Below, piece by piece: positions 2,884 to 27,310 of a stretch of 64,000 nucleotides of DNA. The translations under genes were made by a program, and so were the position numbers. Below the pieces are notes generated by a model, which did no database searches, had not been told where the DNA came from, and saw only the letters and a list, made by a program, of their open reading frames with translations. Origin of the DNA: Sphingobium sp. TKS (GTDB taxonomy: Bacteria > Pseudomonadota > Alphaproteobacteria > Sphingomonadales > Sphingomonadaceae); NCBI RefSeq assembly GCF_001563265.1, contig NZ_CP005083.1:3847001-3911000 (forward strand), read 5' to 3'. Position 1 is the stretch's first letter, and each line of letters begins with the position of its first letter.

Positions 2884-3058
2884 GCGCCGGGTGAAATGAC
2901 ACTGATGCGAGGTACAGGAAATTGCGTCTACCGGTGATGATCCGCCTGGTGTGCATGGCGGTGACAAAACCAGCCAGTGGAGCGCCGGCATTGTGCTGAG
3001 CGCGGCGGAGTAAAATCCGGCCATTGGTTAGGCTGAACCTTTTTGAGGTCGGCCAAGG

Positions 3059-5403: not shown

Positions 5404-5418
5404 TCGGCAAAGACAACA

Positions 5419-5460
5419 ATGATATGAAGAGGGCCCCGATCGGGGCCCTCTTCATATCAT
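5419..5460 (+). terminator. Perfect 42-bp palindrome after istB, copy 1
   Basis: The arm ATGATATGAAGAGGGCCCCG and its complement meet at GA/TC, giving a 21-bp stem with almost no loop. It sits just after istB inside the IS and is repeated in copy 2 at 30331-30372. It can act as a terminator in both directions, although there is no long T run. Protection of the IS genes from outside transcription is an alternative. Confidence 0.6.
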
Positions 5461-5528
5461 CATCCCTGCATCAACAATGGCCTGCTTTTACTCCGCCCCG
5501 CTGGCTTGGAATCAGACCGCCGTTGACA

Positions 5529-5764: not shown

Positions 5765-6778
5765 ATGTCTGCCGTATCTGCCTTTCCATCCTTCTCCCAG
5801 CCCCGAATGTCCGCGAAGACATCCGGCGTCGTCGCGTGCATCGATTGCACCGATCGCAACGCGTGGATCTATCCACACGCTCTTGCTCTGGCTTCAACGC
5901 TCGACGTTCCGGTAACGCTGCTTCAGGTCTTGGACAGAGACGCGTCGCCCGACGCACGGCCTGACCCCATCGAGTGCAATCTTCGTCGCCGCGAGGCCAT
6001 GCGGGTGCTCGATCGTTGTGCTGCGACGATCGAACCGTCCTCATCTCAAACGACCATTGAGCTCGCAGAAGGACCGGCGGCGGAGGAAATCTGCCGGTAC
6101 GTGCGGGAGTGTGACGAAGGGATGGTCGTGCTGGGCAGGCGCGGACGAAAGGAAGCCGGCCGCGACGGCGTGGGGGGCACGGTCCACAAGGTGCTGTCCC
6201 AGGCACCAGGCCCTGTCCTGCTTGTTCCGGTGGAAGCGCCCGTCCCGGGTTCGGCCTATCGACGGATCGTGGTGCCGCTCGATGGCTCGCGCTGGGCCGA
6301 AAGCGTGCTGCCCCTTGCGGTGCGCCTCGCGAAGGCAGCCGACGCCGAGCTGCTGCTCGTTCATGTCGTCCCCACGCCCGAAATGATCCAGGCGCGACCC
6401 CTGGAAACCGAAGACGAGACGCTGCGCGAAAACCTGATCGAACGCAACGAGCAGGCCGCGCGCAGCTATCTGGATCGGACCAGGTCCAATCTTTCGGCGA
6501 TGGGCCTTCGCGCTCGCGCGATTGTCATCCGTGGCGGCGACGTTCGCGACACGCTTTGCGCGTTGGTCGATCGCGAAGCGGCTGATCTCGCGGTGATGTC
6601 CGCACGCGGGCACGGGCATCAGCATGTCAGGGACGTCCCGTACGGAACGGTTGCCTCCTATCTGATGGCCCATTGCAGTGTCCCGATGCTCGTCCTGCCT
6701 TCGGCGAGCCGCAAGGCGCAAATGACTTCGCCTGCCGCCAGCCAGAGCGTGAGATTGCCAACGGCCATTCAGGTCTGA
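5765..6778 (+). CDS. Tandem-domain universal stress protein (UspA family)
   Basis: This 337-residue cytoplasmic protein has two UspA domains. The first, about residues 20-155, ends in VVLGRRGRKEAGRDGVGGT and LLVPV. The second, about residues 160-310, begins YRRIVVPLDGSRWAES and ends with ARGHGHQHVRDVPYGT before LVLPS. Both keep the G-2X-G-9X-G(S/T) pattern of ATP-binding Usp proteins. Tandem Usp proteins are common in low-oxygen regulons of Proteobacteria and Mycobacteria; the link here is from context. The next gene starts 3 bases after its stop, so usp and the glucan synthase form one operon. The AGGAGG ribosome site 8 bases before the ATG supports the start. Confidence 0.9.
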   Translation: MSAVSAFPSFSQPRMSAKTSGVVACIDCTDRNAWIYPHALALASTLDVPVTLLQVLDRDASPDARPDPIECNLRRREAMRVLDRCAATIEPSSSQTTIELAEGPAAEEICRYVRECDEGMVVLGRRGRKEAGRDGVGGTVHKVLSQAPGPVLLVPVEAPVPGSAYRRIVVPLDGSRWAESVLPLAVRLAKAADAELLLVHVVPTPEMIQARPLETEDETLRENLIERNEQAARSYLDRTRSNLSAMGLRARAIVIRGGDVRDTLCALVDREAADLAVMSARGHGHQHVRDVPYGTVASYLMAHCSVPMLVLPSASRKAQMTSPAASQSVRLPTAIQV

Positions 6779-6781
6779 TTG

Positions 6782-9700: not shown

Positions 9701-12700
9701 GCGACACGGCTTCACAACACGCTCGATACGTTGGATCGCCTGGACCGCTACCGCGGGCATATTCTCAACTGGTACGAGACGAGAACGCTCGCGGCCCTGG
9801 AGCCCCGATATGTTTCGACCGTCGACAGCGGAAATCTCGCGGTCAGTCTGATCACCGTCGCGCGAGCCCTTCAGGAAGCCAGAAGCTTGCCACCGGTCGC
9901 CACGGATTTGTGGCGAGGGTTTGACGACAATATCGAGTTGCTCGCCGAAGCGATTGCGACGATCGACCTCGAAGCGGCCTCCGCCGCCGGCTCGATCCTT
10001 GAGGCTATGCGGGAAACCGCCCGCAGGATTGAGGAAGGGAGGCAAGACTGGGCCGAGAGGATCGACGATCTCCTGTCGACCGATCTTCCTCGCCTGCGCG
10101 AGCAGATTACCCTGATGGCCGAAAGCGTCGGCGAGGATGAAATCGCCTCCCTGCGGAATGTCCAAGCCTGGCTGGAGCGGCTCGAACATCATCTGTCCGG
10201 CATGCGGCGAGACCTTCGGCTGTTCTCGCCCTGGTGGGAGACGCTCGCGCCGCATCCGGCAGAGTGTTCGAACGTCGCGGCAAAAGTCGCCGACCTGTTG
10301 GCGAACGACCGGCTGCCGTCCACGCACGCGGGCGCCGCGGCAGCAATTGGCGTCCTCAATGCGGCGAGAGACCAGCTACCGGCGGAAAGCCGGCAATGGG
10401 CGCACGATCTCCAGGCGGTGATCGAGGAAGGCCAGGCGGCCCGGCAAGCGCTTCATGACCGCCTCGATGACCTCTCCAGTCGCGCTAACGCCGCCGCGCA
10501 CGCCATGGACTTCTCGTTCCTGTTCGATGCCGGCAGCCGGCTCTTTCATATCGGCTACAATGTGAGCGCCGATCGAATAGATCCGCACCACTACGATCTG
10601 CTCGCCAGCGAAGCACGCCTCGCCAGCTTTTTCGCCATCGCGAAGGGCGACATAGAGCCTCTGCACTGGTTCCATCTCGGGCGGCCCATCACCAAGCAGC
10701 ACGCAGGCCTGGCGTTGATATCGTGGAACGGCTCGATGTTCGAATATCTGATGCCGAACATCTTCCTGCAGAGCGATCCCCAAACCCTGCTCGGAATGAG
10801 TGACCGGACCGCGATTGCTATCCAGATCGCATTCGGGCGGTCACATGATATGCCTTGGGGTATTTCGGAGTCGTCCTTCGCATCGATGGGCGAGGACCGC
10901 GTCTACCGATATCACGCATTCGGCGTCCCTGCGCTCGGCCTCCAGCGAGGTCTGGGGCGCGATCTGGTTATCAGCCCCTATGCGACGGCGCTGGCGCTGA
11001 CGATCCGGCCCGCGCTGGCGACGCGCAACCTTCAAACTCTGGCGGATCTTGGCCTCATCGGCCGATACGGATTTTTCGAAGCGGTCGACTTCACGCCCGA
11101 GCGGGCGCCTGACGGTGAACGCTTTGCCGTCGTGCGCTCCTACATGGCTCATCATCATGGCATGAGCCTTGCCGCGCTCGGAAACGCGTTGTGCGATGAC
11201 ATGCTCGTGCGCTGGTTCCACACCGATCCTCATATCCGCACCGTCGACCTGCTCCTTAACGAAAGGATTCCATGGGAGCTGCCGCCCGAGATCGCGCGGC
11301 TTGAGGTTCGTGAGCCACAGCCGGAACCCGACGAACTGATTCCGGGCCTTTACGGCTGGGCACCCACTCGGCGCCGTGGGGAGCACGCGTGGCAGATTCT
11401 CGGCAATGGCCGGCTTTCGAGCCGCATTCGGACAGACGGTGCAGGTGGGCTGAGCTGGAACCAGCATGCCCTGACCCGTGGGGACGCAGGTTTCTGGATC
11501 TATCTGCACGACCGGGATGCAGATGTTACCTGGTCGGCAACGGGCGGCCCCTTTTCTCGACCCGAAGACGCGCCGGAGGTGATCTTCCAAGCGCATCAGG
11601 TGGAGTTCCACCAGCGCGCCCACGGCTTGTCGGTCACGACAACGATCAATGTCGCCAATGCCGACGACCTGGAGATCCGGCGTGTCGCTCTTGTCAATGA
11701 TAGCGATAAGCCCCGGACCATCGAAGTCACGGGCTACGCGCAGATCGTTCTGGCTCCGGCCCAGGACGCGGCGCGCCACCCTGCCTTCAGCAAGCTGTTC
11801 GTGGGGGCGGAAGCCTTGCCTGGCAATGACGGCCTGCTTTTCACGCGGCGGCCGCGCAGTTCGGCGGAACGTCCGCCCGTCCTGCTGACCCGTGTGATCG
11901 GGGATGAAGATGGCGTTACCCTGCTCGGTCTCGAAGCCGATCGCAGCGCTTTCATCGGACGATATGGGTGCCCCAGGCGGCCCGCATTGTTGACCGGGGA
12001 ACTGCCTGGTGGCCCGCTCGGCTGGACGCTTGATCCGATCTGCGCGATCAGGATGACGGTGGAACTGCCTCCGCGCGCGCGACGTGAATTCGCCTTCGTC
12101 ACCATTGCGGCTGGATCCCGGCAATCGGCCCTCGAACTTGCCGAGCGCTTTACCACCCTGCCGTCACTCGACTGGGCTGTGAGCGATACGGCAAGTGCGG
12201 CGGCGCGCGAGATGCACAAGCTGGGCCTGCAGCCGCACATCGTGCCGCAGGCGCAGGCGTTGCTGTCCACTCTTCTCACCAGAGCGGCAGAGCCGGGATC
12301 GGCCGGCGCGCGCACATTTCGGCGCGGGGACCTTTGGGCGCTCGGGATATCGGGCGACCATCCTATTTTGATGCTGCGTTCCGGAACCGCGGAGCAGCAG
12401 GACCTGCTTCGACAGCTTCTCTCCTTCCACAAGCTCATGCGGCAGCGTGGTATGCCGATCGACCTGGTGGTGACGCATGAAGGAACGTCGGGCTATATCG
12501 AGCCCGTCCGCGAGCGTCTTCTGGAAGTGCTGAAGGATGCCGGGCTACAGGATCGCCTTGGCACCCATGCCGGGATACACCTCGTCGGCATCGGTCCATC
12601 CGATGGCGAGCGGGCGGCGCTTCTCGATCAGGTTGCCCGCCTCATCCTTGACGAAGCCGGCGGCAGCCTAGTCGACCAGCTTGCGCGATACGACCAGCCG

Positions 12701-15193
12701 CCGCATCCGGGCCCTCTGTTCGCGCCGGTCGGGGCGAACTCCGGTACAATCATGACGGCGCCCGTACCGCGCCCGGCTGATCTGCAATTCGATAATGGGT
12801 GGGGAGGCTTCGATCCGGATACGGGCGACTATACTATCTATCTGGAACCCGGTGCGCCGACCCCTGCGCCCTGGGCCAACGTCCTCGCCAACGACGGCTT
12901 CGGGACGATCGTGACCGAGGGCGGTCTGGGCTTCACCTGGGCGATAAACAGTGGTGAAAACCGTCTCACGCCGTGGTTCAACGACCCTGTCGAAGATCCT
13001 CAAGGCGAACGCCTTTATCTGCGCGATGAGGAAAACGCACGGCTCTGGACGCCGACGCCGCTTCCGGCCGGTGGAGACACGGCATGCCGCATCGATCACG
13101 GCCCCGACCGTACGTCCTGGCACCGGCATAGCGAAGGCCTTGAACAGGAGCTCTCCGTCATCGTGCCGACGCACGACACCGTGAAGCTTGTCCGGCTTCG
13201 CTTGCGTAATCAGTTGCCGCGTCCGCGCCGGATCACGGCTACCTACTATGCCGAATGGCTGATGGGCGCTGTGCAAGGAGAACAGGCGCCCCTGCGCCGC
13301 TCATTCTATGATCCGATCTCGCACGCGATTCTCGGCCAAAATCCCTGGACCGACGAATTTGCCGACCGCATCTCCTTTCTTGCTTCGACACTTCCGGTCC
13401 ACACGCTCACCACCTCACGCTACGATTTTCACGGCGATGACGCCGACCCCACCAGTCCCCTCGGACTTCTGAACTGGGATCTTGGTCACCGGCAGCATGC
13501 TGCCGGTGACGACTGCTGCGCCGCCCTGCAGGTCCATCTTGATATCCCGGCTGAAGGAACCGCAGAAGTTTGCTTTGTGCTGGGGCAGGGCGACGACCTG
13601 GATCACGCGCGTGACCTTGTCCGTCGCTGGCAGGACCCATCGGCCTTCGAGACCGCGGCGCGGGAGTGTGCCGGTTTCTGGAAGGACAGGCTGGACGCGG
13701 TGCAGGTCAAGACGCCCGATCCCGCCTTTGACCTGATGGTCAACCGGTGGTTGCCGCACCAGTCGCTCAGCGCCCGCATCCGCGCCCGCGCGGGCTTTTA
13801 TCAGGCGAGCGGCGCTTTCGGTTTTCGCGACCAGCTGCAGGATGTTCTGGCACAGATCCATGTCGATCCGAATGCAACACGGCAGCATATCCTTGCCGCG
13901 GCTGCCCATCAGTTCGAGGAAGGCGACGTGCTGCATTGGTGGCATCCGCCATTGGATCGCGGCGTCCGCACGCGCTGCTCGGACGATCTGGTCTGGCTAC
14001 CGTACGCCGTTGCTCATTATGTTGAGGCGACCGGAGACAAAACCATCCTGAGCGAGCTGGTTCCTTTTCTGCGGGCGCCCCCGCTCACGGCCGAAGAAAC
14101 CGATCGCTATGCGCGTTTCGAGGTGAGTGACTACACGCAATCCCTGTTCGTTCATTGCGAGCGCGCGCTTTCCCACGCCTACCGCCTCGGGTCTCATGGC
14201 CTCCCGCTGATTGGTGCAGGGGACTGGAATGACGGCATGGATCGCGTGGGCAACCGGGGGCATGGCGAAAGCATATGGCTCGCCTGGTTTCTCATCGCGA
14301 CCATCCGAAATTTCACGCGTCATTGTGTGGATGCGGACCGGAACGAGTTCCGCGACCATTGGAACGGCCGCGCAGAGACGCTCGCGGCCGCGGTGGAACG
14401 GTCGGGGTGGGATGGCGAATGGTATTTGCGCGCATTCGACGACGACGGCCGCCCATGGGGCGCGTCGGAAGAACAGGAATGCCGCATCGATTCCATCGCG
14501 CAGTCGTGGTCCGTATTGTCGGGTGCCGGCAAGGTCGAGCGTACCCGATCGGCGCTCGCTTCGGCCAGACGATATCTGGTTCGGGATGACGACAGTCTCG
14601 TGCGTCTGCTGGATCCGCCCTTTGACCGCACGCCGCGTGAGCCGGGTTATATCAAGGCCTATCCGCCGGGAATTCGCGAGAATGGAGGCCAGTATACTCA
14701 CGCGGCAAGCTGGCTCGCGCTCGCGCTCGCGCGCACGGGGGATGGTGACGGGGCCAAGGCGCTCTTCGACCGGATCAATCCTATTCAGCATGCCGCGACG
14801 GCTCGCAGCGCCGCCCATTATCGAACCGAGCCTTATGTCGTGGCGGCTGACATTGCCGGCATGGAGCCCTACCTCGGCCGAGGTGGCTGGACCTGGTACA
14901 CGGGTGCCGCAGCCTGGACATGGCGGTTGGCGGTAGAGGAGATTCTTGGCGTTCGGCTCGTGGGCGGCGAACTTCAGGTGCGCCCCGTCTTGCCCAGGGA
15001 CTGGGAGAGCGTCGAATTGACCCTGCGGCGAGGCCGTGGATCTATTCATGTAACGATCGAGACGGATGATACTCTGGAGAGCGAAGAACCGGTAATCGAG
15101 GTTGAAGGGACGCTCTGGGACGCACGCGGAATCCCGTTCCCCGAGAACGATCATACGCGGATAGTCGTCGTGCGGGTTGCGCAGCGAGCCTGA
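6782..15193 (+). CDS. ndvB: Cyclic beta-1,2-glucan synthase homologue (NdvB/ChvB type, GT84-GH94)
   Basis: At about 2803 residues it matches NdvB/ChvB, the giant inner-membrane enzymes that build and cyclise periplasmic beta-1,2-glucan. An N-terminal soluble region is followed by membrane segments (about residues 305-370) and a glycosyltransferase-84 region with MTADADTRLS and a WHRWVRGDWQ motif. More membrane helices lie at about 720-890. A glucoamylase-like region follows (YNVSADRIDPHHYDLLASEA near 1258, WNGSMFEYLMP near 1315). The C-terminal GH94 phosphorylase-like part (about 1500-2800) holds GAGDWNDGMDRVG near residue 2477. A TTG one codon upstream could also serve as start; ATG at 6782 is preferred. 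It follows usp by 3 bases. Periplasmic glucans act in osmo-adaptation and host interaction; the role in this strain is unknown. Confidence 0.93.
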   Translation: MADYEERDPLAGAAEEVADRHHLTGLLGKSVPLPAWAHLEEMKTWLRQARQAAAKADKRAGAAAEWLLDNDYQIQRAILQIREDLPEEFYAKLPAISGDGLGRPRVHQLAHALLQASHLQVSLNGAVLFVEQYQKTMPLSIAETWAFPTMLRIVCLELLIGGFSHLFPEVEPPFEIVETPDTAMVGFDDTECVARAIANLGVIATIQWNDFFDRTSQVEAILRRDPAGVYPHMDFDTRDRYRHAVEQLADQSGLPEWDVAERALRQCHSSDEAPSGHVGFWLIDIGRPAFADAIDPRPWTPGSILRRALRYPGLLYAAALLLAGLAGFALPAAYLVSTGATAGSWLLGIALTLLPASILSITFVNWLVTHIVRPNVLPKLDFKEGIPESSATAVVMPVLVARLSDIAPLLRRLEAHRLSNPDAALEFVLLSDFADASQESVSVDADIVRALTSGIEELNARFANAKGRGPFHLLHRPRRFNAAQGCWMGWERKRGKLEQFNAFILNGDASPFNVTVGSIERLRRCRFVMTADADTRLSAGIVRRLVGTLSHPLNRAHFNAATGAVERGYTVLQPRVELAPEATGQSLFSRLYGGDTTIDIYSRAVSDVYQDLLGTGVYVGKGLYDVAAFHRSLEGRVPENTLLSHDLFEGLHGRAALVSDAIVYESFPTSYLDFTWRWHRWVRGDWQILPWLFPFVPGGDGRWLRNRLGWFDRLKIFDNLRRSIIPASIVALLVGGWFLLHGQPWVWTLLAVIAPGAYLFTDLVTGLAQGRRRGVMQNLLRRLADHAGRWFLAIVFLVSDAMIALHAIAITLWRLHSGQRKLEWTSAAHMATRNAARHPRLAAWRDMAASPVFALIIGAGLFLAAPASLPVAAPLLLLWFIAPEIAIRISRPIEPAKDTLSENDRKFLRLMARRTWLFFETFVRPEDNWLPPDNYQEPPDEEIAHRTSPTNIGMMMVSVLTAWRLGHIGLNEVATRLHNTLDTLDRLDRYRGHILNWYETRTLAALEPRYVSTVDSGNLAVSLITVARALQEARSLPPVATDLWRGFDDNIELLAEAIATIDLEAASAAGSILEAMRETARRIEEGRQDWAERIDDLLSTDLPRLREQITLMAESVGEDEIASLRNVQAWLERLEHHLSGMRRDLRLFSPWWETLAPHPAECSNVAAKVADLLANDRLPSTHAGAAAAIGVLNAARDQLPAESRQWAHDLQAVIEEGQAARQALHDRLDDLSSRANAAAHAMDFSFLFDAGSRLFHIGYNVSADRIDPHHYDLLASEARLASFFAIAKGDIEPLHWFHLGRPITKQHAGLALISWNGSMFEYLMPNIFLQSDPQTLLGMSDRTAIAIQIAFGRSHDMPWGISESSFASMGEDRVYRYHAFGVPALGLQRGLGRDLVISPYATALALTIRPALATRNLQTLADLGLIGRYGFFEAVDFTPERAPDGERFAVVRSYMAHHHGMSLAALGNALCDDMLVRWFHTDPHIRTVDLLLNERIPWELPPEIARLEVREPQPEPDELIPGLYGWAPTRRRGEHAWQILGNGRLSSRIRTDGAGGLSWNQHALTRGDAGFWIYLHDRDADVTWSATGGPFSRPEDAPEVIFQAHQVEFHQRAHGLSVTTTINVANADDLEIRRVALVNDSDKPRTIEVTGYAQIVLAPAQDAARHPAFSKLFVGAEALPGNDGLLFTRRPRSSAERPPVLLTRVIGDEDGVTLLGLEADRSAFIGRYGCPRRPALLTGELPGGPLGWTLDPICAIRMTVELPPRARREFAFVTIAAGSRQSALELAERFTTLPSLDWAVSDTASAAAREMHKLGLQPHIVPQAQALLSTLLTRAAEPGSAGARTFRRGDLWALGISGDHPILMLRSGTAEQQDLLRQLLSFHKLMRQRGMPIDLVVTHEGTSGYIEPVRERLLEVLKDAGLQDRLGTHAGIHLVGIGPSDGERAALLDQVARLILDEAGGSLVDQLARYDQPPHPGPLFAPVGANSGTIMTAPVPRPADLQFDNGWGGFDPDTGDYTIYLEPGAPTPAPWANVLANDGFGTIVTEGGLGFTWAINSGENRLTPWFNDPVEDPQGERLYLRDEENARLWTPTPLPAGGDTACRIDHGPDRTSWHRHSEGLEQELSVIVPTHDTVKLVRLRLRNQLPRPRRITATYYAEWLMGAVQGEQAPLRRSFYDPISHAILGQNPWTDEFADRISFLASTLPVHTLTTSRYDFHGDDADPTSPLGLLNWDLGHRQHAAGDDCCAALQVHLDIPAEGTAEVCFVLGQGDDLDHARDLVRRWQDPSAFETAARECAGFWKDRLDAVQVKTPDPAFDLMVNRWLPHQSLSARIRARAGFYQASGAFGFRDQLQDVLAQIHVDPNATRQHILAAAAHQFEEGDVLHWWHPPLDRGVRTRCSDDLVWLPYAVAHYVEATGDKTILSELVPFLRAPPLTAEETDRYARFEVSDYTQSLFVHCERALSHAYRLGSHGLPLIGAGDWNDGMDRVGNRGHGESIWLAWFLIATIRNFTRHCVDADRNEFRDHWNGRAETLAAAVERSGWDGEWYLRAFDDDGRPWGASEEQECRIDSIAQSWSVLSGAGKVERTRSALASARRYLVRDDDSLVRLLDPPFDRTPREPGYIKAYPPGIRENGGQYTHAASWLALALARTGDGDGAKALFDRINPIQHAATARSAAHYRTEPYVVAADIAGMEPYLGRGGWTWYTGAAAWTWRLAVEEILGVRLVGGELQVRPVLPRDWESVELTLRRGRGSIHVTIETDDTLESEEPVIEVEGTLWDARGIPFPENDHTRIVVVRVAQRA
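13485..13510. repeat. Perfect 26-bp palindrome inside ndvB
   Basis: The half GTCACCGGCAGCA is followed directly by its reverse complement, with no spacer. It lies within the GH94 part of ndvB and encodes GHRQHAAGD in the gene's frame. Such a long perfect palindrome in a coding frame is rare, but it could be chance in GC-rich codons. Confidence 0.7.
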
Positions 15194-15232
15194 AGAGCAA
15201 TCCAGGACTGGGGCCAACGTGTATCCGGTGCT

Positions 15233-15244
15233 TTACGTAGCGCC
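15233..15244 (+). promoter_or_regulatory. Putative FixJ-type site upstream of the small ORF at 15305
   Basis: TTACGTAGCGCC has the same core as the sites at 394 and 21034. It lies 65-72 bases before the ATG at 15305, which would put a transcription start about 40-50 bases downstream of the motif, as in FixJ-type activation. It falls in the 111-base gap after ndvB, where a new promoter is expected. Confidence 0.45.
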
Positions 15245-15304
15245 CAGTGCTTCAGGCTCGGCTACAGGAACACTTCTCAACACCTTGTTGCCGGGGAGCG
15301 ACCG

Positions 15305-15994: not shown

Positions 15995-17605
15995 TCACAA
16001 ATGGCGGACATCCAGGACGTCCATGACCTGCGTTGCGACCGTCTTGCGGTCATCCGCCGCGTTGACGCGGTGCCAGTTGATGTGACCCAGATCGTAGCGG
16101 GTCTGCATCGCGACAACAGCTGCGTTGGCATCCGAAGCGTCATGTGTCCGGCTGGATACCCTCGCGGTCAGCATATCCGGCGACGCGTTGAGCCATATGC
16201 CATCGAAGCGCGCATCTCGTCGCAGTGCGACCTCCTGGATCGCCGTGCGCTCTTCAGGCTTCGCATGGACAGCGTCGGCCACCACCGAATGCCCGGCGTA
16301 AAGCATGTGTCCCGCCAGCCGTCTCAGCTCTGTGTAAATCGCTGCGTTCGCGGACAGGGTATATGCGTCTTTGGGAAGCGGCGATTCTGGCGGCACGCCG
16401 GCAAGTCGCTTCCGCAGCACATCGGATCTCAGAATACGCGCGCCTGGAACCTCGCCGAGGGAATGGCCGATCAGTTTCGCTATTGTGGACTTGCCGGACC
16501 CGGAGAGCCCGCCAATGGCGACGAGCCGCGCGGGCACCGGTTCGAGCACTGCGCGCGCCAGCGTCAGATAGGCGCTGGCCTTTTGGGTCAGAGCTTCGTC
16601 TGAACCATCGCTCGCCTGTGCGGCCGATGTATGGGCGCGAATCCCGGCTCGGATCGAAAGAAACAATGGCACAAGAGCCACGCCGGCCTCGTCTTGAGGG
16701 GAAATGTCCAGATAGCGATTGAACAGGGCATTCGCTTCGCAATGAAGGCCGCGGCCCCATAAATCCATGAGTAGGAACGCAAGGTCGTAAAGGACATCGC
16801 CGGTCGCAAGTTCGGGACTGAATTCCAGGCAGTCGAACAGGACGGGGCTCCCGTCGATCACGGCAATGTTACCCAGATGCAGATCGCCATGGCCATGTCT
16901 CACGCGCCCGCTTCGCGCACGTGAATCGAGCAGATCGGAGTGCTGGGCCAGCAGGGCGACTTGCCTGTCGATCAGGTCTCTCACGAGCCGAGCGGGAAGA
17001 ATGTCGGGGAATCGAGCCATGCTTCGATCATTCCCGGCAATGACGGCTTCCAAACGGCTGCGCCCCGATCCGGACAGGCAAGTCTCGGCGCCATCATGAA
17101 ATGCCTTGATCCGGTCTGCGAGCTGCGTGATCAGCACATCGGTCAGGCCACCTTGGGTTGCCACATGATCGAGCAAGGCGTCATCGGGAAAGCGGCGCAT
17201 CTCCAGAAGCCAATCGACAGGTTCTCCCTCGCCATCGAGGTTCAGGCAGCCCGCCGAATTCTTGGATACCGGGCGAACCGCCAGGTAGAGTTCCGGCGCG
17301 GTCCTGCGATTAAGCCGTAGCTCCGCTTCCAGGGCGGCGCGGCGTCTATCGGCGGTTGAAAAATCCAGATAGTCGAACTGGACGGCACGCTTGAGCTTCC
17401 ATGCACGATCGCCGACGAGGAACACACGCGCCGCATGCGTGTCGATCCGACGCATGGTCTCTCCAGAGCCGAAGGCTCGTCCCTCGAGAAGGGTTATGAC
17501 GTCGGCTTGCGGGTCTGCGTGGTGCCGAGGTCCCGTCGAAGCCTCCGGCAAACTGCTATGCCTGCCCGATTTCGATCTTCCGACTCCGCGCTGGCGCATT
17601 TTCAT
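15995..17605 (-). CDS. Fused aminoglycoside phosphotransferase-like / P-loop kinase protein
   Basis: The product has two parts. The N-terminal half is an APH-like kinase fold: RIDTHAARVFLVGDRAWKLK holds the ATP-binding lysine, and GHGDLHLGNI with LFDCLEF are the catalytic and metal-binding loops. The C-terminal half is a P-loop kinase with Walker A GGLSGSGKSTIAK (near residue 370) and a later R-rich lid. This two-domain family (COG0645 plus COG2187) is widespread and its substrate is not established. The longest frame starts inside hsp20 (50-base overlap). A TTG at 17551, just past the hsp20 stop, is a plausible alternative start and keeps all conserved sequence. It lies directly downstream of hsp20 and is probably cotranscribed with it. 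Confidence 0.85.
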   Translation of the reverse strand: MKMRQRGVGRSKSGRHSSLPEASTGPRHHADPQADVITLLEGRAFGSGETMRRIDTHAARVFLVGDRAWKLKRAVQFDYLDFSTADRRRAALEAELRLNRRTAPELYLAVRPVSKNSAGCLNLDGEGEPVDWLLEMRRFPDDALLDHVATQGGLTDVLITQLADRIKAFHDGAETCLSGSGRSRLEAVIAGNDRSMARFPDILPARLVRDLIDRQVALLAQHSDLLDSRARSGRVRHGHGDLHLGNIAVIDGSPVLFDCLEFSPELATGDVLYDLAFLLMDLWGRGLHCEANALFNRYLDISPQDEAGVALVPLFLSIRAGIRAHTSAAQASDGSDEALTQKASAYLTLARAVLEPVPARLVAIGGLSGSGKSTIAKLIGHSLGEVPGARILRSDVLRKRLAGVPPESPLPKDAYTLSANAAIYTELRRLAGHMLYAGHSVVADAVHAKPEERTAIQEVALRRDARFDGIWLNASPDMLTARVSSRTHDASDANAAVVAMQTRYDLGHINWHRVNAADDRKTVATQVMDVLDVRHL

Positions 17606-18050
17606 CCTTGGTCAGTGTGACGGTGAGGACACCATCCTTGAATGCAGCGGTGATCCCGTTCGGGTCAACGTCGCTGGGCAAGGATACCTGGCGCCGGAAG
17701 GAGCCATATCGCCGTTCGCTGAATACATAGCCCTTGTCCTTGCGTTCGGTCTCCTCCTTCTTTTCGCCGGCTATCGTCAGGAGACCGTCAGCGACGCTGA
17801 TATCGATATCATCATCGGACAGGCCAGGGAGCTCGGCGGTGAGGCGATAGGCCTTGTCCTCATCGACAAGTTCAATAGCCGGAACTGGCGCGATTGAAGA
17901 TCGATTGCCGACACCGAACAGACTGGCGGCGGGGCGGCCAAAATCTTCGAAGAGGCGGTCAATCTCCGTGCGAAGCCAATCAACCGGATGATCGAGAATT
18001 GGGCTGATCGGATTGGCCTTGGACGTGGTCGCTGGAACCTGATCATTCAT
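17556..18050 (-). CDS. Small heat-shock protein, Hsp20/alpha-crystallin family
   Basis: The 164-residue product has the classic small Hsp layout: a variable N-terminal arm (about 1-55), an alpha-crystallin domain (about 56-150) with AELPGLSDDDIDISVADGLL and a beta-strand block ending FKDGVLTVTL, and a short tail. The conserved A-x-x-x-x-G-V-L signature is present as AAFKDGVLTV. Such ATP-independent holdases form large oligomers in the cytoplasm and bind unfolding proteins. An AGGAGG ribosome site lies about 6 bases before the ATG. A run of 12 C on the coding strand lies 44-55 bases upstream of the ATG, in the likely promoter region, and could affect expression if its length varies. Confidence 0.95.
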   Translation of the reverse strand: MNDQVPATTSKANPISPILDHPVDWLRTEIDRLFEDFGRPAASLFGVGNRSSIAPVPAIELVDEDKAYRLTAELPGLSDDDIDISVADGLLTIAGEKKEETERKDKGYVFSERRYGSFRRQVSLPSDVDPNGITAAFKDGVLTVTLTKDENAPARSRKIEIGQA

Positions 18051-18105: not shown

Positions 18106-18225
18106 ATGGCCGATGAATCAGGCCAACAGCGATCCGGCCCTCGAGCGAGGAGGAGGCTATGCGGTTGCCTGGGTGGGCTCTATCCGGAAAGTTACTGAGG
18201 GGCGTTTGGGGCGCTCACCATCTCA

Positions 18226-18247: not shown

Positions 18248-18594
18248 GTTCAGGTAGCAGCGCGCAAGTTGCACGGATGATGACAATCCGAAGAGCCCGG
18301 CCTAAAGAACGCCGACGGTTTGAAGCTCGTGGATGCGACGGTCTGGACATGTTTCCAGCGCTGAACTCCAAAGCAAGTAACATCATCGTTGAGATGGTTG
18401 CCAATTTTAATGGATCGCACGAGGCGCTGTTGATAGGCTTGAGACAGAAAGGGGTATCAGCGCTTGCTGCTTCCTTCTGACGACGAAGAGGCAGAGTCAT
18501 CATTAAAACCGCTCCGCGATCCGGGAAATTCCTCCATTCATGGCAAGCGGGTGCCATTGCGCCACTGGTTGACCGTTCGATCCATGCCCGGCTT

Positions 18595-20418
18595 TTGACC
18601 GCGTCCCTCGCGGGACTGGCTATCGCCGTCATCGCGGTGGTCACACGATGGCAGCTTGGCCGGCAGATCGACGAGAGCGTTCATTATTTCGTCTCTCTCG
18701 GCGTGGCCGGTATGGTGCTCGTGGCGCTCAGGCCGGATATCGTGGTGTTGGCGGGCGTCACGCTCGTTACCCTTACGACGCTCGCAATCGTTGACGGTTG
18801 GCCGACCGTGGCAGAACAGTGGGTTGCCCTGTTCCTGTTTCTCGCCGCCATGGCTCTGCTTTGGCGGAATCACCATCGTACTCTCTCACGCGCTCGCGAT
18901 CTCGCGGACGGGACGAGGATGCTGGCCGCAGAACTGAACCTGCTCATCGATGGGGCGGAAGATTATGCGATCTATATGCTCGATGCTGAAGGGCGGGTCA
19001 CGATCTGGAACGGGGGCGCCGAGCGTCTGAAAGGCTGGACAGAGGTCGAGATGGCCGGCCAGCTTACAGATCGGTTTTATCCGGCCGATGTCGTCGCCAG
19101 CGGCAAGCCGACGTCCTTGCTTGCCGAAGCACAACACCGTGGCAAGATCGAGATCGACGAGTGGCAGATTCGTAAGGATGGCAGTGAGTTTCTGGCTCAC
19201 ATTTCCATCACCGCGTTGAAAAAACCCGACGGATCGTTGGGCGGTTTCGCGACAGTTGTCCACGACATCACCGACCAGCGAGCAACGCTGAGCTCTCTTC
19301 GCAACAGTGAAGCGCATCTTCGTTCGATTTTGTCGACGGTCCCCGATGCAATGATCGTCATCGATGAAGGCGGCACGATGGTGTCGTTCAGCACGGCGGC
19401 CGAGCGTTTGTTCGGTTACACTCAGGAGGAAGTCCTGGGTTCCAATGTCAGCATGTTGATGCCCTCGCCTTATCGCGAACGCCATGACGGTTTTCTCGAG
19501 CGCTATCTGCGTACAGGAGAGCGGCGCATCATCGGGATCGGACGCGTGGTTTTTGCACTGCGAAAGGATGGGACGACCTTCCCGATGGAGTTGTCGGTTG
19601 GAGAAGCGGCCGGCGAGAGCCAGCGGCTGTTCACCGGCTTCATTCGCGATCTGACGGATCGCCAAAGGACACAGGAGCGGCTAGAGCAGCTTCAATCCGA
19701 ACTGATCCACGTCGCGCGCGTCAGCGCGATGGGGACGATGGCGTCGACGCTCGCCCATGAGCTGAATCAGCCGATCACCGCCGTAGCCAACTATCTCGAA
19801 GCGGTCCGGGACCTGCTCGACCAGCCAGATCCCGATGATCTGCCCGACATCCGGGAGGCGCTGACAGACGCCGCGGGGGAAGCGATGCGCGCGGGTCATA
19901 TCGTGCGCCGTTTGCGTGATTTCGTTGCCAGGGGGGAGGTCGAGAAGACTGTCGAGAACTTGCCTAACCTTATCAACGAAGCGGCTGCCTTCGGCCTGAT
20001 GGGCGCGGGCGAGAAATCGATCGAAACCCGCATGGACATCGATCACGAAGCTGCGACGGTCCTCGTCGATAAGGTCCAGATCCAGCAGGTCCTCGTGAAC
20101 TTGATCCGCAATGCGGTCGAGGCCATGAATGCGCGCGCCAGGCCTGTGCTCACCATCCGCACCGGTCCCGACCAGGCGGGTTTTGTGCGTGTCACGGTGT
20201 CCGATACCGGCACGGGAATGGCCCCCGAGGTCGCTGCCCAACTCTTCAAGGCCTTTGTCAGCACCAAGTCGGACGGCATGGGGTTGGGTCTTTCGATTTG
20301 TCGAACGATTGTCGAAGCCAATGGCGGGCGCATCTGGATGGAGCCTGCGGAAGGGGGCGGCACGCAATTCCATTTCACACTGGTCAGGGCAGATAGGGAG
20401 CAATCTTATGGAGGATAA
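18595..20418 (+). CDS. fixL: FixL-type heme-PAS sensor histidine kinase
   Basis: This membrane histidine kinase starts with hydrophobic segments (about residues 1-90). A PAS domain follows (about 120-240, [19 protein letters not shown]), then a second PAS (about 245-370), HisKA with [10 protein letters not shown] (phospho-His about residue 388) and a HATPase with DTGTGM and [10 protein letters not shown]. The second PAS is the FixL type. [11 protein letters not shown] puts His297 at the heme-ligand position (His200 of Bradyrhizobium FixL), and RRIIGIGR keeps Arg303 and Arg317, equivalents of Arg206 and Arg220. His214 is replaced by Arg311. It is therefore expected to sense O2 through heme. 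The start is uncertain: TTG at 18595 is the first usual start codon, but the frame is open back to 18481. It overlaps fixJ by 11 bases. Confidence 0.92.
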
Positions 20419-21022
20419 GCGGATCGTCCACATCGTCGACGATGAAGATGCAATCCGTCGATCTGCCGGTTTCATGCTCAAGAAATCAGGTTTCTCGGTC
20501 GAAACCTGGTCCTCCGGTGTTGAATTTCTGAAAGACGTGAGGAACGCGGCCGAGGGCTGCATTCTCCTCGATGTGCGTATGCCTCAGATGGATGGGCTCG
20601 AAGTCCAAAAGGAATTGAACGAACGCGGTATCGCGATGCCCGTCATCATCCTGACTGGGCATGGCGATGTGTCGATCGCTGTAAGCGCGATGAAGGCCGG
20701 CGCAGTCGACTTCATCGAGAAACCGTTCGAGAAGGCGGTGTTGCTCGCGGCTATTGAAAGTGCCTTCGAACGGCTTGCCGACGTTGAAGGCAGGGCAACC
20801 CGCGCCGCCGACGCAACGATCCGCGTCGCCGCTCTGTCCGGGCGCGAACAGGATGTGCTCAAGGGGCTTGCGCGAGGACTGCCAAACAAGACGATCGCTT
20901 ATGATCTTGGGATTTCGCCGCGCACCGTAGAGGTGCATCGCGCCAACCTCATGACCAAGCTGGGCGTTCGCAGCCTGTCGGAGGCGCTCCGTATCGCGTT
21001 TTCCGCGGGGATCACGGGCTGA
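20408..21022 (+). CDS. fixJ: FixJ-type response regulator
   Basis: At 204 residues it equals FixJ in length. The receiver domain (1-120) has the acidic pair DD at 11-12, the phospho-acceptor Asp at about 55 in [17 protein letters not shown] and the conserved Lys in FIEKPF. The LuxR/FixJ-type helix-turn-helix (about 140-200) reads [20 protein letters not shown], then [18 protein letters not shown]. The ATG overlaps the end of fixL, so the two are coupled and should form a sensor-regulator pair. In rhizobia FixJ phosphorylated at low oxygen activates fixK and nifA. No fixK or nifA is in this window, so the targets may be the island genes with TTACGTAG motifs, including ppsA. That is inference. 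Confidence 0.93.
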
Positions 21023-21033
21023 GGATCGGGACA

Positions 21034-21045
21034 CTTACGTAGCGA
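21034..21045 (+). promoter_or_regulatory. Putative FixJ-type site upstream of the receiver-only regulator
   Basis: TTACGTAGCGAC occurs 12 bases after the fixJ stop and 44-51 bases before the start at 21085 (68-75 before the alternative ATG at 21109). It matches the sites at 394 and 15233 over the core and the following YG. A FixJ-activated promoter here would drive the receiver-only protein, the hemoglobin and the former alcohol dehydrogenase. Confidence 0.45.
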
Positions 21046-21084
21046 CCCGGGGATCGTTTCCTGACATCGTCCGAGGGACCAGCA

Positions 21085-21516
21085 ATGCCGCTGGGCCGAT
21101 GGTGTGAGATGTCAGGCGAGAATATTGCGGCCCCGTTGCGGGAACGCCCGCGTCTTCTTCTGGTCGAGGATGACGCCGGTGTTCGCCGTTCACTGCAGCT
21201 TCTCTTTCGTGCGCAGGGTTTTGACGTCCGGGCCTATGCGGCTGGTGCGGCGCTTCTGGACGATCCGTTATCGGGGGATGCCTGCTGCTTCGTTGCTGAT
21301 TTTCGATTGGAGCAGAGCGATGGCATCGAGGTGCTTTGCCGCCTGCGCGAACGTGGCTGGCCGGGTCCAGCCATACTCATCACCGCGTTCCCATCGGCCG
21401 AACTGACCGAGCGTGCCTTGGCGCAGGGGTTCGCCCATGTTCTGGAAAAGCCCCTGCGGGAACATGCGCTGACTGGCGCGCTTGCCAGGCTGACGGGCGT
21501 GGGAAAGCGCATTTGA
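21085..21516 (+). CDS. Receiver-only response regulator (FixJ-receiver type)
   Basis: This 143-residue protein consists of a single receiver domain. RLLLVEDDAGVRRSLQLL carries the acidic pocket, CCFVADFRLEQSDG the phospho-acceptor Asp (about residue 72), ITAFPS the switch Thr, and VLEKPL the conserved Lys. It ends after the domain and has no DNA-binding part. It may divert phosphate from FixL (phosphate sink), feed a different output, or be a remnant of a full FixJ paralogue. The chosen ATG gives 24 bases of extra N-terminus; ATG at 21109 (MSGENIAAPL) is equally possible and places the FixJ-type motif at a better distance. It precedes the hemoglobin by 47 bases. Confidence 0.88.
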   Translation: MPLGRWCEMSGENIAAPLRERPRLLLVEDDAGVRRSLQLLFRAQGFDVRAYAAGAALLDDPLSGDACCFVADFRLEQSDGIEVLCRLRERGWPGPAILITAFPSAELTERALAQGFAHVLEKPLREHALTGALARLTGVGKRI

Positions 21517-21563: not shown

Positions 21564-21974
21564 GTGACAGCAGCGGAACAGAAACAGCAGGCGCCCTATG
21601 ATCTGGTTGGAGGGGCCGTCGTCGTCCGGAATATCGTAGACCGCTTCTATGATCTGATGGATCAGGAGGACGCCTATCGGGAGTTGCGTGCGCTACACGC
21701 CCCGGAGTTGGGGCCGATGCGCGTTTCGCTTGCCGGTTTTCTCAACGCATGGCTGGGCGGACCGCGAGATTGGTTTGATGATCACCCTGGCGTTTGCATG
21801 ATGTCGGCCCATGCGCGCCTGCCGATCACTGGTGAGACAGCGGATCAGTGGTGTGACGCGATGCGCCGCGCCATCGCTGATTCGACGGTAGATCCTGCCC
21901 TGGGCGTCAAGATGGCCGAAGCCTTGTCGAACATGGCGCAGGGCATGGCGGCGCGTGCCGCGTCGGCAGCGTGA
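21564..21974 (+). CDS. Group II truncated hemoglobin
   Basis: The 136-residue product matches truncated hemoglobins of group II. It has YDLVGGAVVVRNIVDRFYDLM at the N-terminus, FLNAWLGGPRDWF in the middle, the proximal heme His in MMSAHARLP, and the G8 Trp in ADQWCDAMRRA. Group II globins bind O2 and NO tightly and are linked to O2 delivery or NO detoxification. The start is GTG with ACAGGAGAAA just upstream, a good ribosome site. It lies between the receiver-only regulator and the broken alcohol dehydrogenase, all on the plus strand and closely spaced, so they probably formed one low-oxygen operon. Confidence 0.9.
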   Translation: MTAAEQKQQAPYDLVGGAVVVRNIVDRFYDLMDQEDAYRELRALHAPELGPMRVSLAGFLNAWLGGPRDWFDDHPGVCMMSAHARLPITGETADQWCDAMRRAIADSTVDPALGVKMAEALSNMAQGMAARAASAA

Positions 21975-22005
21975 CCCCGCGGCGCGAACAGGCGAAGAAA
22001 TCACT

Positions 22006-22840
22006 ATGACCGAGATGTTCGCGATGCAGCTCGAAGCGGTCGGCACGCCGCTGCGGCTCGTCGCGCGACAGGTTCCAACGCCTGGTCGAGGCGAGCTTCT
22101 CATCGAGGTCGCTGCTTGCGGCGTCTGCCGAACCGATCTGCATATCGTCGATGGGGAGATCGAATCCCGCCTCCCCATCGTTCCCGGGCACGAAATTGTC
22201 GGCATCGTTGTTGCGGCGGGGGAAGGGGTCGCCGATGTCGCGATCGGTGATCGCGTCGGCGTTCCCTGGCTCGGACATAGCTGCGGCCATTGCGACTATT
22301 GCCGAACAGGTCATGAAAATCTGTGCGATAGTCCCGCATTCACGGGATGCACCCGGGATGGCGGTTATGCGACCCATACGGTTGCGGACGCTCGCTTCTG
22401 CTTCAGGATACCCGACGCCTTTTCCAATGAAGAAGCCGCGCCCTTGCTGTGCGCCGGGCTGATCGGCTGGCGGTCCCTGCGCGCTGCGGGGGAGGGAACG
22501 CGGATCGGTCTCTACGGATTTGGCGCCGCCGCGCATATCATCGCCCAGATTGCGCTGTGGCAGGGCCGGGCGGTTTATGCCTTTACCAGGGCGGGAGACG
22601 ACGAGGGACAGGCTTTTGCGCGATCACTCGGCTGCGCCTGGGCCGGATCATCGGAGGATGACCCGCCCGTGGAACTCGATGCGGCGATCCTCTTTGCCCC
22701 CGTCGGTGATCTTGTTCCGCGCGCGCTGCGTGCAATCCACAAGGGAGGCAGGGTGATCTGCGCAGGGATCCACATGAGCGACATTCCGTCGTTCCCCTAT
22801 GCTGACCTCTGGGGTGAGCGAACCATTGCATCGGTGGCTA
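22006..22840 (+). pseudogene. Zinc alcohol dehydrogenase, 5' part, interrupted by two insertion sequences
   Basis: The reading frame starts at ATG 22006 (GGCGAAG upstream) and encodes about 277 residues of a medium-chain zinc alcohol dehydrogenase. It has CGVCRTDLHIVDGE (catalytic Cys), PIVPGHEIVG (His-Glu), the structural-zinc cysteines in CGHCDYCRTGHENLCD, and the cofactor loop LYGFGAAAH. It runs to ERTIASVA and then into the IS5-type element, which supplies a false end (ARLRTR and stop). The natural C-terminal part is found beyond the IS701 element at 25112-25287, so the gene was about 335 codons. Without the C-terminal segment the product is probably inactive. Confidence 0.93.
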
Positions 22841-23676
22841 GGCTCAGGACTCGTTGATCAGAGCCAGAAGAGCACTGTTGCCGCGAGCGCGAGAGCGGAG
22901 AAGAAGACGGTCGGGCAGCGGTCGTATCGCGTTGCCACGCGTCGCCAGTCCTTGAGGCGACCAAACATGATCTCGATGCGGTTACGGCGTTTGTATCGGC
23001 GCTTGTCGTATTTGACGGGCAAGGATCGAGATTTCCGGCCGGGAATGCAGGGTTTGATGCCTTTTTGCTCGAGTGCGTCCCGGAACCATTCGGCGTCATA
23101 GCCCCGGTCGGCAAGCATCCATTGCGCCTTGGGCAGATCGTCGAGCAAGGCTGCCGCGCCGGTATAATCGCTGATCTGTCCAGCGGTGATGAAGAAGCTC
23201 AAGGGGCGGCCATGGGCATCGGTGATGGCGTGAAGCTTGGTATTCATGCCGCCCTTCGTGCGTCCGATCAGGCGGCCGCGATCCCCTTTTTTACCCGCAG
23301 GCTCGAAGCCGTGCGGTGTGCCTTCAGATAGGTCGCATCGATCATGACGGTCGTTGGCTCTGCGCGTTCGGCAGCGAGGCCTTCCATCATGCGCCCGAAG
23401 ACACCCATCTCGCCCCAGCGCTTCCAACGGTTGTAGAGCGTCTTGTGCGGCCCGTATTCCCTGGGAGCATCCCGCCAACGCAGGCCGTTCCGATTGACGA
23501 AGATGATCCCGCTCAGGACCCGCCTGTCATCCACACGAGGTTTGCCGTGGCTCTTGGGAAAATACGGCGAAAGTCGCGCCATCTGCTCGTCGGTCAGCCA
23601 GTACAGGTCACTCACGCTCAGTCTCCTTGCGGAGCCTGAATCACAGACCACTCAGCCAATCAATGGGTCCTGAGCC
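22841..23676 (-). mobile_element. IS5-family (IS427-type) insertion sequence
   Basis: Inverted repeats GGCTCAGGACTCGTTGA (22841-22857) and, reading inward from 23676, GGCTCAGGACCCATTGA bound an 836-bp element. The direct duplication is TA (22839-22840 and 23677-23678), as expected for the IS427 group. The target was the left copy of the CTAA duplication made by the IS701-family element, so this insertion came second. It encodes one transposase on the minus strand in two overlapping frames. Confidence 0.93.
22858..23615 (-). CDS. IS5-family transposase in two frames, joined by -1 frameshift
   Basis: The first frame starts at GTG 23615 (MSDLYWLTDEQMARL once initiated) and ends at 23268. It carries the N-terminal domain with RWRDAPREYGPHKTLYNRW and the first catalytic Asp in VMIDATYLK. 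The second frame runs to 22858 and has GRTKGGMNTKLHA, LADRGYDAEW (second Asp) and NRIEIMFGRLKDWRR (the Glu region). The frames overlap at the slippery heptamer A-AAA-AAG (minus strand, 23292-23286). A -1 shift there joins the reading frames exactly, as is known for the IS427 group. The full product would be about 250 residues. No damage is seen, so the element is probably functional. Confidence 0.9.
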
Positions 23677-23679
23677 TAA

Positions 23680-26272: not shown

Positions 26273-27310
26273 ATGAAAGCTCTCGTTTATCATGGCCCCG
26301 GCGAGAAGAGTCTCGAGGATCGCCCGAGGCCGGCCTTGCAGGCACCCGGCGATGCGATCGTGCGGATCACGAAGACCACCATTTGCGGCACCGACCTGCA
26401 CATCCTGAAGGGGGATGTGCCGACGTGCGAGCCGGGCAGGATCCTCGGACATGAGGGTGTCGGGATCGTGGAGGAGGTCGGAACCGCGGTTGGAGCCTTC
26501 AAGCCCGGAGATCATGTCCTGATCTCCTGCATCACCTCTTGTGCCCGGTGTGAATATTGCCGGCGCGGCATGTATTCGCATTGCGTCGAGGGCGGCTGGA
26601 TATTGGGCAACAGGATCGATGGCACGCAAGCCGAATTCGTGCGCATCCCCCATGCCGACAACAGCCTTCACGCGATCCCGCCGGGGGCCGATGAGGATGC
26701 CCTCGTCATGCTGAGCGACATTCTTCCGACGGGCTATGAGTGCGGCGTCCTGAACGGGAAGGTTGCACCGGGCAGCAGCGTCGCGATCGTCGGCGCTGGA
26801 CCGATCGGCCTGGCGACCCTGCTGACTGCGCAATTTTATGCACCGGCCCGGATCATCATGATCGATCTCGACGACAATCGCCTCGCCGTCGCGCGCAAGT
26901 TCGGCGCGACGGACACGTTCAACAGCGGACGTGATCCGGTCGTGAGCCTGGTTCGAGAGCTCACCGACGGCAAGGGGGTCGATACGGCTATCGAAGCAGT
27001 CGGGATCCCTGCGACATTCGCGTTATGCGAAGAACTGGTCGCGCCCGGCGGGGTAATTGCCAATGTCGGTGTCCACGGCGCCAAGGTCGACCTCCATCTG
27101 GAGGAACTCTGGTCGCGCAACATCACCATCACCACCCGGCTCGTCGACACCGTCAGCACGCCGATGCTCCTGAAGACGGTCGAGGCCAAGCGCCTGCGGC
27201 CCGAACAGCTCGTCACCCATCGTTTCGCGTTGTCGGACATGTTGGAGGCGTATGAGACGTTCGCGCGCGCAGCCGATACTCATGCCTTGAAGGTGGTGAT
27301 CGACACGTGA
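26273..27310 (+). CDS. Zinc-dependent alcohol dehydrogenase (medium-chain family)
   Basis: This intact 345-residue protein has all family marks. These are ICGTDLHILKGD with the catalytic Cys, ILGHEGVGIVEEVG with His-Glu, structural-zinc cysteines in CITSCARCEYCRRGMYSHC, and the nucleotide-binding GAGPIGLATLL followed by MIDLDDNRL, where the Asp favours NAD over NADP. It resembles the isopropanol / threonine-dehydrogenase-like branch; the substrate is not known. An ACGGAGGAG ribosome site precedes the ATG. It may take over some function of the broken dehydrogenase at 22006. Its stop overlaps the GTG of the thymidine phosphorylase fragment (GTGA). Confidence 0.92.
   Translation: MKALVYHGPGEKSLEDRPRPALQAPGDAIVRITKTTICGTDLHILKGDVPTCEPGRILGHEGVGIVEEVGTAVGAFKPGDHVLISCITSCARCEYCRRGMYSHCVEGGWILGNRIDGTQAEFVRIPHADNSLHAIPPGADEDALVMLSDILPTGYECGVLNGKVAPGSSVAIVGAGPIGLATLLTAQFYAPARIIMIDLDDNRLAVARKFGATDTFNSGRDPVVSLVRELTDGKGVDTAIEAVGIPATFALCEELVAPGGVIANVGVHGAKVDLHLEELWSRNITITTRLVDTVSTPMLLKTVEAKRLRPEQLVTHRFALSDMLEAYETFARAADTHALKVVIDT

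Follow-up and report, generated by a model that had tools for sequence, protein, structure and literature searches.

The window considered here is a stretch of 64,000 nucleotides from Sphingobium sp. TKS, a member of the sphingomonad family (contig NZ_CP005083.1, labelled G000:C1:3847001-3911000; the genome comprises 6.23 Mb in 11 contigs). It carries a gene for a FixL-like kinase, a gene for a FixJ-like response regulator and, directly behind them, a gene for a stand-alone receiver (Table 1). In the following, G numbers denote genomes, L numbers loci and P numbers the FixL paralogues of the own genome. The initial annotation, made from the sequence alone, described a FixL-type sensor and FixJ in a sphingomonad-like setting; these hold, but the third gene and four other FixL genes of the genome had been missed. 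The new elements are this third gene, which completes a recurrent trio, and a candidate FixJ operator, hereafter the box.

The FixL-like kinase and the FixJ-like regulator

The kinase frame encodes 607 amino acids from a TTG codon at 18595, the first usual start in frame; because it stays open for 38 codons further upstream without ATG, GTG or TTG, the start is uncertain. A hydrophobic N-terminal part of approx. 90 residues probably spans the membrane. The second PAS domain aligns without gaps over 129 residues with the heme domain of B. japonicum FixL (PDB 1dp6; E 1.3e-46) and, likewise without gaps, with that of S. meliloti FixL (1d06). In particular, the proximal heme histidine (His297), Arg303 and the distal Arg317 are in register with these FixL structures at exact spacing, as had been predicted, and these residues suggest that the heme PAS senses O2. 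The reported replacement of His214 by Arg is correct with respect to B. japonicum, but it is no peculiarity: S. meliloti FixL has Arg at the same position, and the replacement was ruled out as a sign of altered sensing.

Over residues 206-601 the protein matches the FixL profile at E 2.4e-159, which excludes a chance match. By sequence it is a FixL in the broad sense, with a predicted heme PAS bearing the proximal His and distal Arg, a HisKA and HATPase_c module, and an adjacent fixJ. Its score against the rhizobial FixL equivalog NCBIfam NF041777 is 531.1 bits (model positions 89-484 of 485), below the cut-off of 850. The fixJ frame overlaps fixL, as already stated in the annotation, by 11 nucleotides; its product shares an identical 11-residue stretch with S. 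meliloti FixJ and, at 250.4 bits, falls just below the cut-off of 255 of the FixJ equivalog NF006900. Because both proteins remain below their equivalog cut-offs, they are called FixL-like and FixJ-like.

A recurrent third gene

The third gene encodes a stand-alone receiver located with fixLJ, and by place and make-up it can be described as FixT-like; orthology to FixT is not claimed. Thirty-nine fixL loci were examined, 10 of them named or from the own genome and 29 drawn from 149 family genomes, and 36 were counted, leaving out L041, which has no fixJ match, and the near-duplicates L016 and L018. The fixL-fixJ-receiver trio is present in 23 of these 36 loci. Among the 13 in which no receiver lies directly behind fixJ, six have short FixLs of less than 400 residues (L023, L046, L050, L051, L052 and L054) and two still have a receiver nearby: in L033 (G144) it is found approx. 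1.9 kb behind fixL, with a box, and in L038 upstream of fixL. The phospho-acceptor Asp is mostly kept in the receivers, with Glu instead in L020 (near 8.4 kb, CLIAEYRP) and in the second copy of L017 (24010-24363, CLITEFRM), as if these proteins were locked in one state. S. meliloti also has a small receiver frame between fixJ and the next helix-turn-helix (HTH) regulator; in strain R28 this frame is interrupted near a G run (L113, 6699-6938).

The candidate FixJ box

The box has the consensus GGA-N4-TACGTA-N2-GAC. Of the 23 receiver loci, 18 have the palindrome TACGTA around the fixJ stop (-70 to +150), versus none of the 13 others; in a shuffle control (n=200), the commonest 6-mer was found in 11.1 loci on average and in 16 at most. 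The core is common to the S. meliloti FixJ consensus GTAMGTAG, which according to the accessible part of PMC4999443 was obtained by systematic evolution of ligands by exponential enrichment, and to GTACGTAG of the R. palustris fixK promoter, which was bound by FixJ in an electrophoretic mobility shift assay (PMC13327599, accessible part). Core and position suggest that the box is a FixJ binding site, and, as in a FixJ regulon, a TAMGTAG-type site lies before the putative targets. A longer palindrome, GGNCNNTTACGTANNGNCC, was the first guess; with three mismatches it matched 1216 places in the genome versus 2243 for its reversed control and was dropped as useless. In the open-access papers searched, neither a FixJ site in sphingomonads nor this island together with its regulator was found, which is no proof of absence.

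The pattern was fixed after the scan of the own genome and before the wider counts, in which only exact matches in 397 genomes were taken. Four exact boxes occur in the own genome: three of them in gaps between fixJ and the receiver gene, the fourth upstream of ppsA in the window. A further four sites have one mismatch, one in the fixJ gap of P4, one at L025 2497 (2.5 kb past the window end, within an opposite-strand frame) and two well away from every FixL. The 149 family genomes hold 16 exact boxes in 10 genomes. A receiver gene was read within 250 bp downstream of 13 of them; the remaining three lie before ppsA, 86 bp before a coenzyme A (CoA) ligase gene (L095, G114) and within a coding frame (L093).

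With 248 new genomes added, the count rises to 42 exact boxes in 29 genomes, 26 of them in the new set. Nine of the new boxes precede a receiver gene that was read and two an inferred one (G303:C90, by its distance to fixL, and G308:7904, by identity with the G201 site). Three lie before ppsA (G189, G341 and G196), two before a gene for a metallo-beta-lactamase (MBL)-fold, beta-CASP hydrolase (G189 and G341), and two between divergent usp and adh genes, one read (G308) and one inferred from an identical 18-mer (G201). Thus, 18 of the 26 stand before receiver or island genes, 3 of the 18 inferred without reading. Six of the 26 come from G189 and G341 and are not independent, because the islands of these genomes are near-copies of that in the window; without them, 12 of 20 fit. 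Overall, 22 of the 42 boxes precede a receiver gene that was read and 2 an inferred one, and 9 precede island genes (1 inferred). One of the 26 new boxes, located 54 bp before an ArsC-family gene (L127 1501, G215), is outside any island seen and was not counted as support.

A position weight matrix (PWM) trained on 14 other genomes was used to scan 334 kb in six islands. At a score of at least 16, a threshold chosen after the scores had been seen, it returned 11 sites versus a mean of 0.89 for permuted matrices, none of 200 of which reached 11. Six of these sites fall in fixJ gaps. Of the remaining five, two precede ppsA (in the window and in pDB-2), one precedes a second receiver followed by the gene for phosphoribosyl pyrophosphate (PRPP) synthetase (pLA4), one is between genes for a P-type ATPase and HU (pDB-2), and one precedes the gene for an ATP-binding protein (S. 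panacis). All five are intergenic, compared with 6 of the 10 non-gap hits at a threshold of 14 (with a pLA4 site common to L107 and L108 counted once); some hits below 16, as well as the L025 2497 box, lie within coding frames. The best matrix match within the fixJ-fixK gap of S. meliloti scores only 5.3 and falls on the TAAGTAGTTCCCC stretch, which resembles the known FixJ site TAAGTAATTTCCCTTA (PMC4999443, accessible part). On S. meliloti pSymA, a kinase, a LuxR-type regulator and a stand-alone receiver are encoded before a TrkH potassium transporter (L105, 5440-8354), with no matrix match of at least 12.5 in this trio.

In the window, the box marks only some island genes: the receiver operon, ppsA and, weakly, a small open reading frame (ORF) of 78 amino acids that has no relative in the other loci compared (its sole match, L057, is the same place in this genome). 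Before the remaining island genes, no box scores at least 12.5. Because the marking is partial, control of the whole island is not established. The proposal that FixLJ had been reassigned to the island therefore stands in part: the shared box would link FixJ to some genes, but the locus is not unique.

Paralogues and distribution

Five FixLs are encoded in the own genome, with 100, 64, 62, 55 and 53% identity to the window FixL, and all five keep the proximal heme His and the distal Arg. Besides the window kinase, three are accompanied by a receiver gene and a box (with one mismatch in P4); both are absent beside the short one (C2). Over the 380 residues that were compared, P4 does not differ from the kinase of the copper-resistance plasmid pSPHCH01. 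When 38 kinases were placed in a tree, the window protein grouped with that of pDB-2 (100/100) within a set of 20 rows, mostly receiver-bearing (93/97, not starred). FixL-like kinases are found in 159 of the 397 sphingomonad-family genomes (E<=1e-100), conjugative plasmids carry several such kinases, and 203 plasmid records, rhizobia included, carry such a kinase (E<=1e-60), 36 of them from Sphingobium. The FixLJ system is thus a widespread sphingomonad variant, not a single reassigned locus. Nor is FixLJ without nif confined to this locus, given that Caulobacter has it as well (PMC7078487, accessible part) and that these plasmid records hold such kinases.

A further FixLJ-receiver trio is located in a copper-resistance region (L022 / L018, 12001-14600), and kinases with 54.7-55.1% identity to that of the window are carried by plasmids of several sphingomonad genera (rows H19-H40 of the plasmid matches). 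At L023 (8581-11219), a short FixL that lacks the N-terminal part is encoded with FixJ next to a Usp gene, with no box and no receiver gene.

Mobility of the island

Relaxase and F-type transfer genes flank the island on both sides, in keeping with the mobile character proposed in the annotation: a coupling protein and a TrwC-type relaxase are encoded upstream of the window (L024), and TraG, TraC and a TrbI-type protein in its right part and beyond (L025). G341, a genome from a different genus, shares approx. 25 kb of the island at 99.8-100% identity, with 100% over window positions 24-2949, 99.99% over 5529-13401 and 99.84% over 13402-27861. The interval between the first two segments is an IS21-type element absent in G341. 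After 27861, where a second IS21-type copy begins, the two sequences diverge, and for this reason the MBL-fold gene and box of G341 and G189 are not found at this place in the window. G189, which belongs to a third genus, encodes a FixL identical to that of the window. These sequences show the island to be mobile.

Neighbouring genes

The genes previously named around the trio (ppsA, Usp, globin, adh, ackA, pta and phaC) were all recovered with Pfam, the adh gene being cut by an IS5-type element (Table 1). Seven of eight annotated plasmid regions share, in differing subsets, a stress-island repertoire, which comprises usp, ppsA, a very large glucoamylase-family protein, P-type ATPases, adh, BON, ackA-pta-phaC, RbbA efflux, thymidine phosphorylase with PRPP synthetase, MgtC and Hsp20. 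pISP1 has the repertoire in part, and the region of pSPHCH01 is one of copper resistance. Outside these groups, genes for cytochrome b561 and a VIT1-family protein (30599-32062) lie directly behind the second IS21-type copy. Further on, at 53741-56436, the window encodes a LuxR-type regulator of the autoinducer-binding kind (53741-54532) and a homologue of AbiEii-type toxins (55378-56436).

Table 1. Features of the window, in order of position (position 1 is the first nucleotide of the window)
Feature	Position	Strand	Basis
FixJ-type box GGAGCCTTACGTAGTGACGT, start 113 bp before ppsA start	389..408	+	PWM 17.1; one of 4 exact sites in 6.23 Mb
ppsA, phosphoenolpyruvate synthase	502..2883	+	Pfam PPDK_N, PEP-utilizers
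Inserted IS21-type element, ORFs 3059-4546 and 4543-5403	2950..5528	.	Absent in G341; Pfam IstB_IS21, Mu-transpos_C_2
Universal stress protein (Usp)	5765..6778	+	Pfam Usp
2804-residue glycosyltransferase / GH94 protein, cyclic-glucan-synthase type by domains	6779..15193	+	Pfam Glyco_hydro_94, GH94_b-supersand, Glycoamylase, Glyco_trans_2_3
Weaker FixJ-type box before the 78-residue ORF	15227..15246	+	PWM 14.8
78-residue ORF behind the weaker box	15305-15541	+	Open reading frame
Hsp20 small heat-shock protein	17556..18050	-	Pfam HSP20
fixL-like membrane heme-PAS histidine kinase, start uncertain	18595..20418	+	Pfam PAS (two stretches), HisKA, HATPase_c
fixJ-like response regulator, receiver and LuxR-type HTH	20408..21022	+	Pfam Response_reg, GerE
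FixJ-type box GGACACTTACGTAGCGACCC between fixJ and receiver gene	21029..21048	+	Pattern and PWM
Stand-alone receiver, a one-domain response regulator resembling FixT by place and make-up	21085..21516	+	Pfam Response_reg only; recurrent third gene
Truncated haemoglobin, GTG start	21564..21974	+	Pfam Bac_globin; like-placed pDB-2 gene annotated group II truncated hemoglobin
Zinc alcohol dehydrogenase (adh), cut short by IS5-type element	21955..22857	+	TIGR02822 positions 13-279 of 329
IS5-type element, transposase ORFs 22858-23478 and 23268-23651	22838..23679	-	Annotated IS5 matches over about the same stretch; Pfam DDE_Tnp_1
Second alcohol dehydrogenase	26273..27310	+	Pfam ADH_N, ADH_zinc_N
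Second IS21-type copy	27862-30315		ORF pair at 27971-30315 matching that of the first copy in size, start and score
ackA, acetate kinase; the ORF probably begins upstream of the true start	40545..42092	-	Pfam Acetate_kinase, residues 122-503
MaoC-pta fusion, phosphate acetyltransferase	41735..43156	-	Pfam PTA_PTB, MaoC
phaC, polyhydroxyalkanoate synthase	43160..45049	-	Pfam PhaC_N
traG of conjugation system	58056..61826	-	Pfam TraG_N

The absence of fixK and nif genes, as initially described, agrees with the searches made. HTH_Crp_2 has no hit in the window and 15 in the genome, the nearest approx. 116 kb away. For nifH, the only nif gene searched, the whole genome gave four short matches, the best at 27 bits versus a cut-off of 394. 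The genome has three ccoN genes and encodes two regulators whose Cys pattern marks them as FnrN-like; in it, no exact or one-mismatch box lies within 20 kb of any Crp/Fnr HTH hit. A FixJ box before the FnrN-like gene of L006 was considered and rejected, the match being weak (PWM 6.3). FNR/FixK-type boxes (TTGAY-N4-RTCAA, one mismatch) were likewise discarded, as the window has 2 versus 3.56 expected.

Comparison with known systems

The window system resembles FixLJ-FixT-FixK of S. meliloti and C. crescentus in its heme-PAS kinase, LuxR-type FixJ and receiver frame behind fixJ, and its candidate FixJ site shares with that of S. meliloti a TA[AC]GTAG core. In S. meliloti, the order is fixL, fixJ, the receiver ORF, an HTH regulator in the place of fixK and ccoNOQP. 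In contrast to both species, the window lacks fixK, the box lies before the receiver and metabolic genes, and the system shows several copies per genome, conjugative carriage and no nifH. FixT of C. crescentus is likewise a stand-alone receiver of a FixLJ system; however, the four Cys of the window receiver are at other places than C53, C56, C59 and C64 of FixT (PMC7078487, accessible part).

Another sphingomonad, Sphingobium hydrophobicum C1T, has a plasmid-borne FixL-FixJ, for which horizontal transfer and an oxygen-poor sediment setting have been proposed (PMC6783567); in its accessible part, that account describes no third gene, FixJ site or island regulon. The island also recalls the low-oxygen-activated (lxa) locus of Burkholderia, with six universal stress proteins and heat-shock, BON-domain, metabolism and transport genes (accessible parts of PMC6127331 and PMC9104464), a likeness taken from the published description and not from sequences. 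Unlike in the window, the FixLJ homologues of B. cenocepacia (BCAL2210/BCAL2211) are outside the lxa locus (BCAM0275-BCAM0323) according to these sources. In B. dolosa, FixLJ acts on fixK (PMC5234846, accessible part).

Interpretation

The locus is probably a mobile, FixK-independent oxygen-response unit with built-in feedback, a reading in which we infer the regulation from sequence. The FixL-like membrane kinase would sense O2 through its heme PAS and, as O2 falls, phosphorylate FixJ, which would bind GGA-N4-TACGTA-N2-GAC and turn on first the receiver gene, with the globin and adh genes behind it. The receiver could then damp FixL, as FixT does, or act as a second phosphate acceptor; inhibition of FixL is suggested by analogy with C. 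crescentus (PMC7078487, accessible part). Second targets of FixJ would be ppsA here and, in sister islands, the genes for the MBL-fold (beta-CASP) hydrolase and the CoA ligase and usp/adh. All of this, from the sensor and its feedback gene to the boxes and putative targets, travels jointly as cargo of F-type conjugative elements.

Several observations weigh against this reading. The box was read off the fixJ-receiver gaps, so the sites there support it by construction, and exact TACGTA is missing in 5 of the 23 receiver loci. The window has only two clear boxes, with none before usp, Hsp20 or ackA-pta-phaC. The reversed pattern, compared by number, is commoner than the box (23 versus 16 in 149 genomes; approx. 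66, counted by eye, versus 42 in 397), so it is the position of the sites and not their number that serves as evidence. Nine of the 42 exact boxes have no evident link. Eight of the new sites are unlinked (G378, G178, G282, G253, G215, G243, G222 and G311); G378, G178 and G282, like G115 from the first draw, lack a FixL at E<=1e-100, only short FixL matches are seen in G253 and G215, G311 has a long FixL 380 kb away, and G243 and G222 have none among the matches listed. Two of the five FixLs, P4 and P5, have His in place of the middle pocket Arg. The window receiver is only weakly similar (24% over 71 residues, E 1e-4) to a 79-residue S. meliloti piece that comes from an interrupted frame and is taken as FixT by place only. 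Finally, FixJ may repress as well (PMC13327599, accessible part).

It is unlikely that the box serves self-control only, with the island genes carried along and governed by other factors (FnrN, sigma factors). Such an arrangement would account for the 22 of 42 exact boxes read before a receiver gene and for the other window island genes without a box of at least 12.5, but not for the boxes before ppsA (window, pDB-2 and G196), the MBL-fold gene (G189/G341) and the CoA ligase gene (G114) and between usp and adh (G308); nor is there an excess of FNR-type boxes in the window (2 versus 3.56 expected). The chances appear poorer still that the FixL fold has been kept but reads another signal (NO, CO, redox, or one perceived by the first PAS or the membrane part), with the island answering a different stress: the exact spacing of the proximal His and distal Arg and the gap-free match of 129 residues to the B. 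japonicum heme domain speak against it, despite N-terminal variation between loci (the majority of matches start beyond residue 80), the unmet NCBIfam FixL cut-off and the globin gene directly behind. An ordinary FixLJ that acts on cbb3 oxidases via chromosomal FixK/FnrN and lies in a stress island by accident seems very improbable. The two FnrN-like regulators and three ccoN genes would be available to it, but no box lies within 20 kb of a Crp/Fnr HTH hit, the best score before the FnrN-like gene is 6.3, and the trio stands among island genes in seven of the eight annotated plasmid regions (in pISP1 partly; in pSPHCH01 within the copper region).

A mobile, FixK-independent unit leads to a broader, more tentative proposal. 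A portable oxygen regulon (sensor, regulator, feedback receiver, operators and metabolic targets) may spread as one unit between sphingomonad genera via F-type conjugative elements, and units with the same box may stack within a genome (five FixLs here, four with receiver and box), so that incoming and resident FixJs might share targets and thereby set a graded response to falling oxygen. The candidate operator provides a testable, FixK-free target list, and the paralogues are a natural set for asking why one genome keeps five FixLs. If the proposal is true, an oxygen-survival programme could be acquired whole by conjugation, which would bear on the persistence of aerobic pollutant degraders in oxygen-poor soil and sediment.

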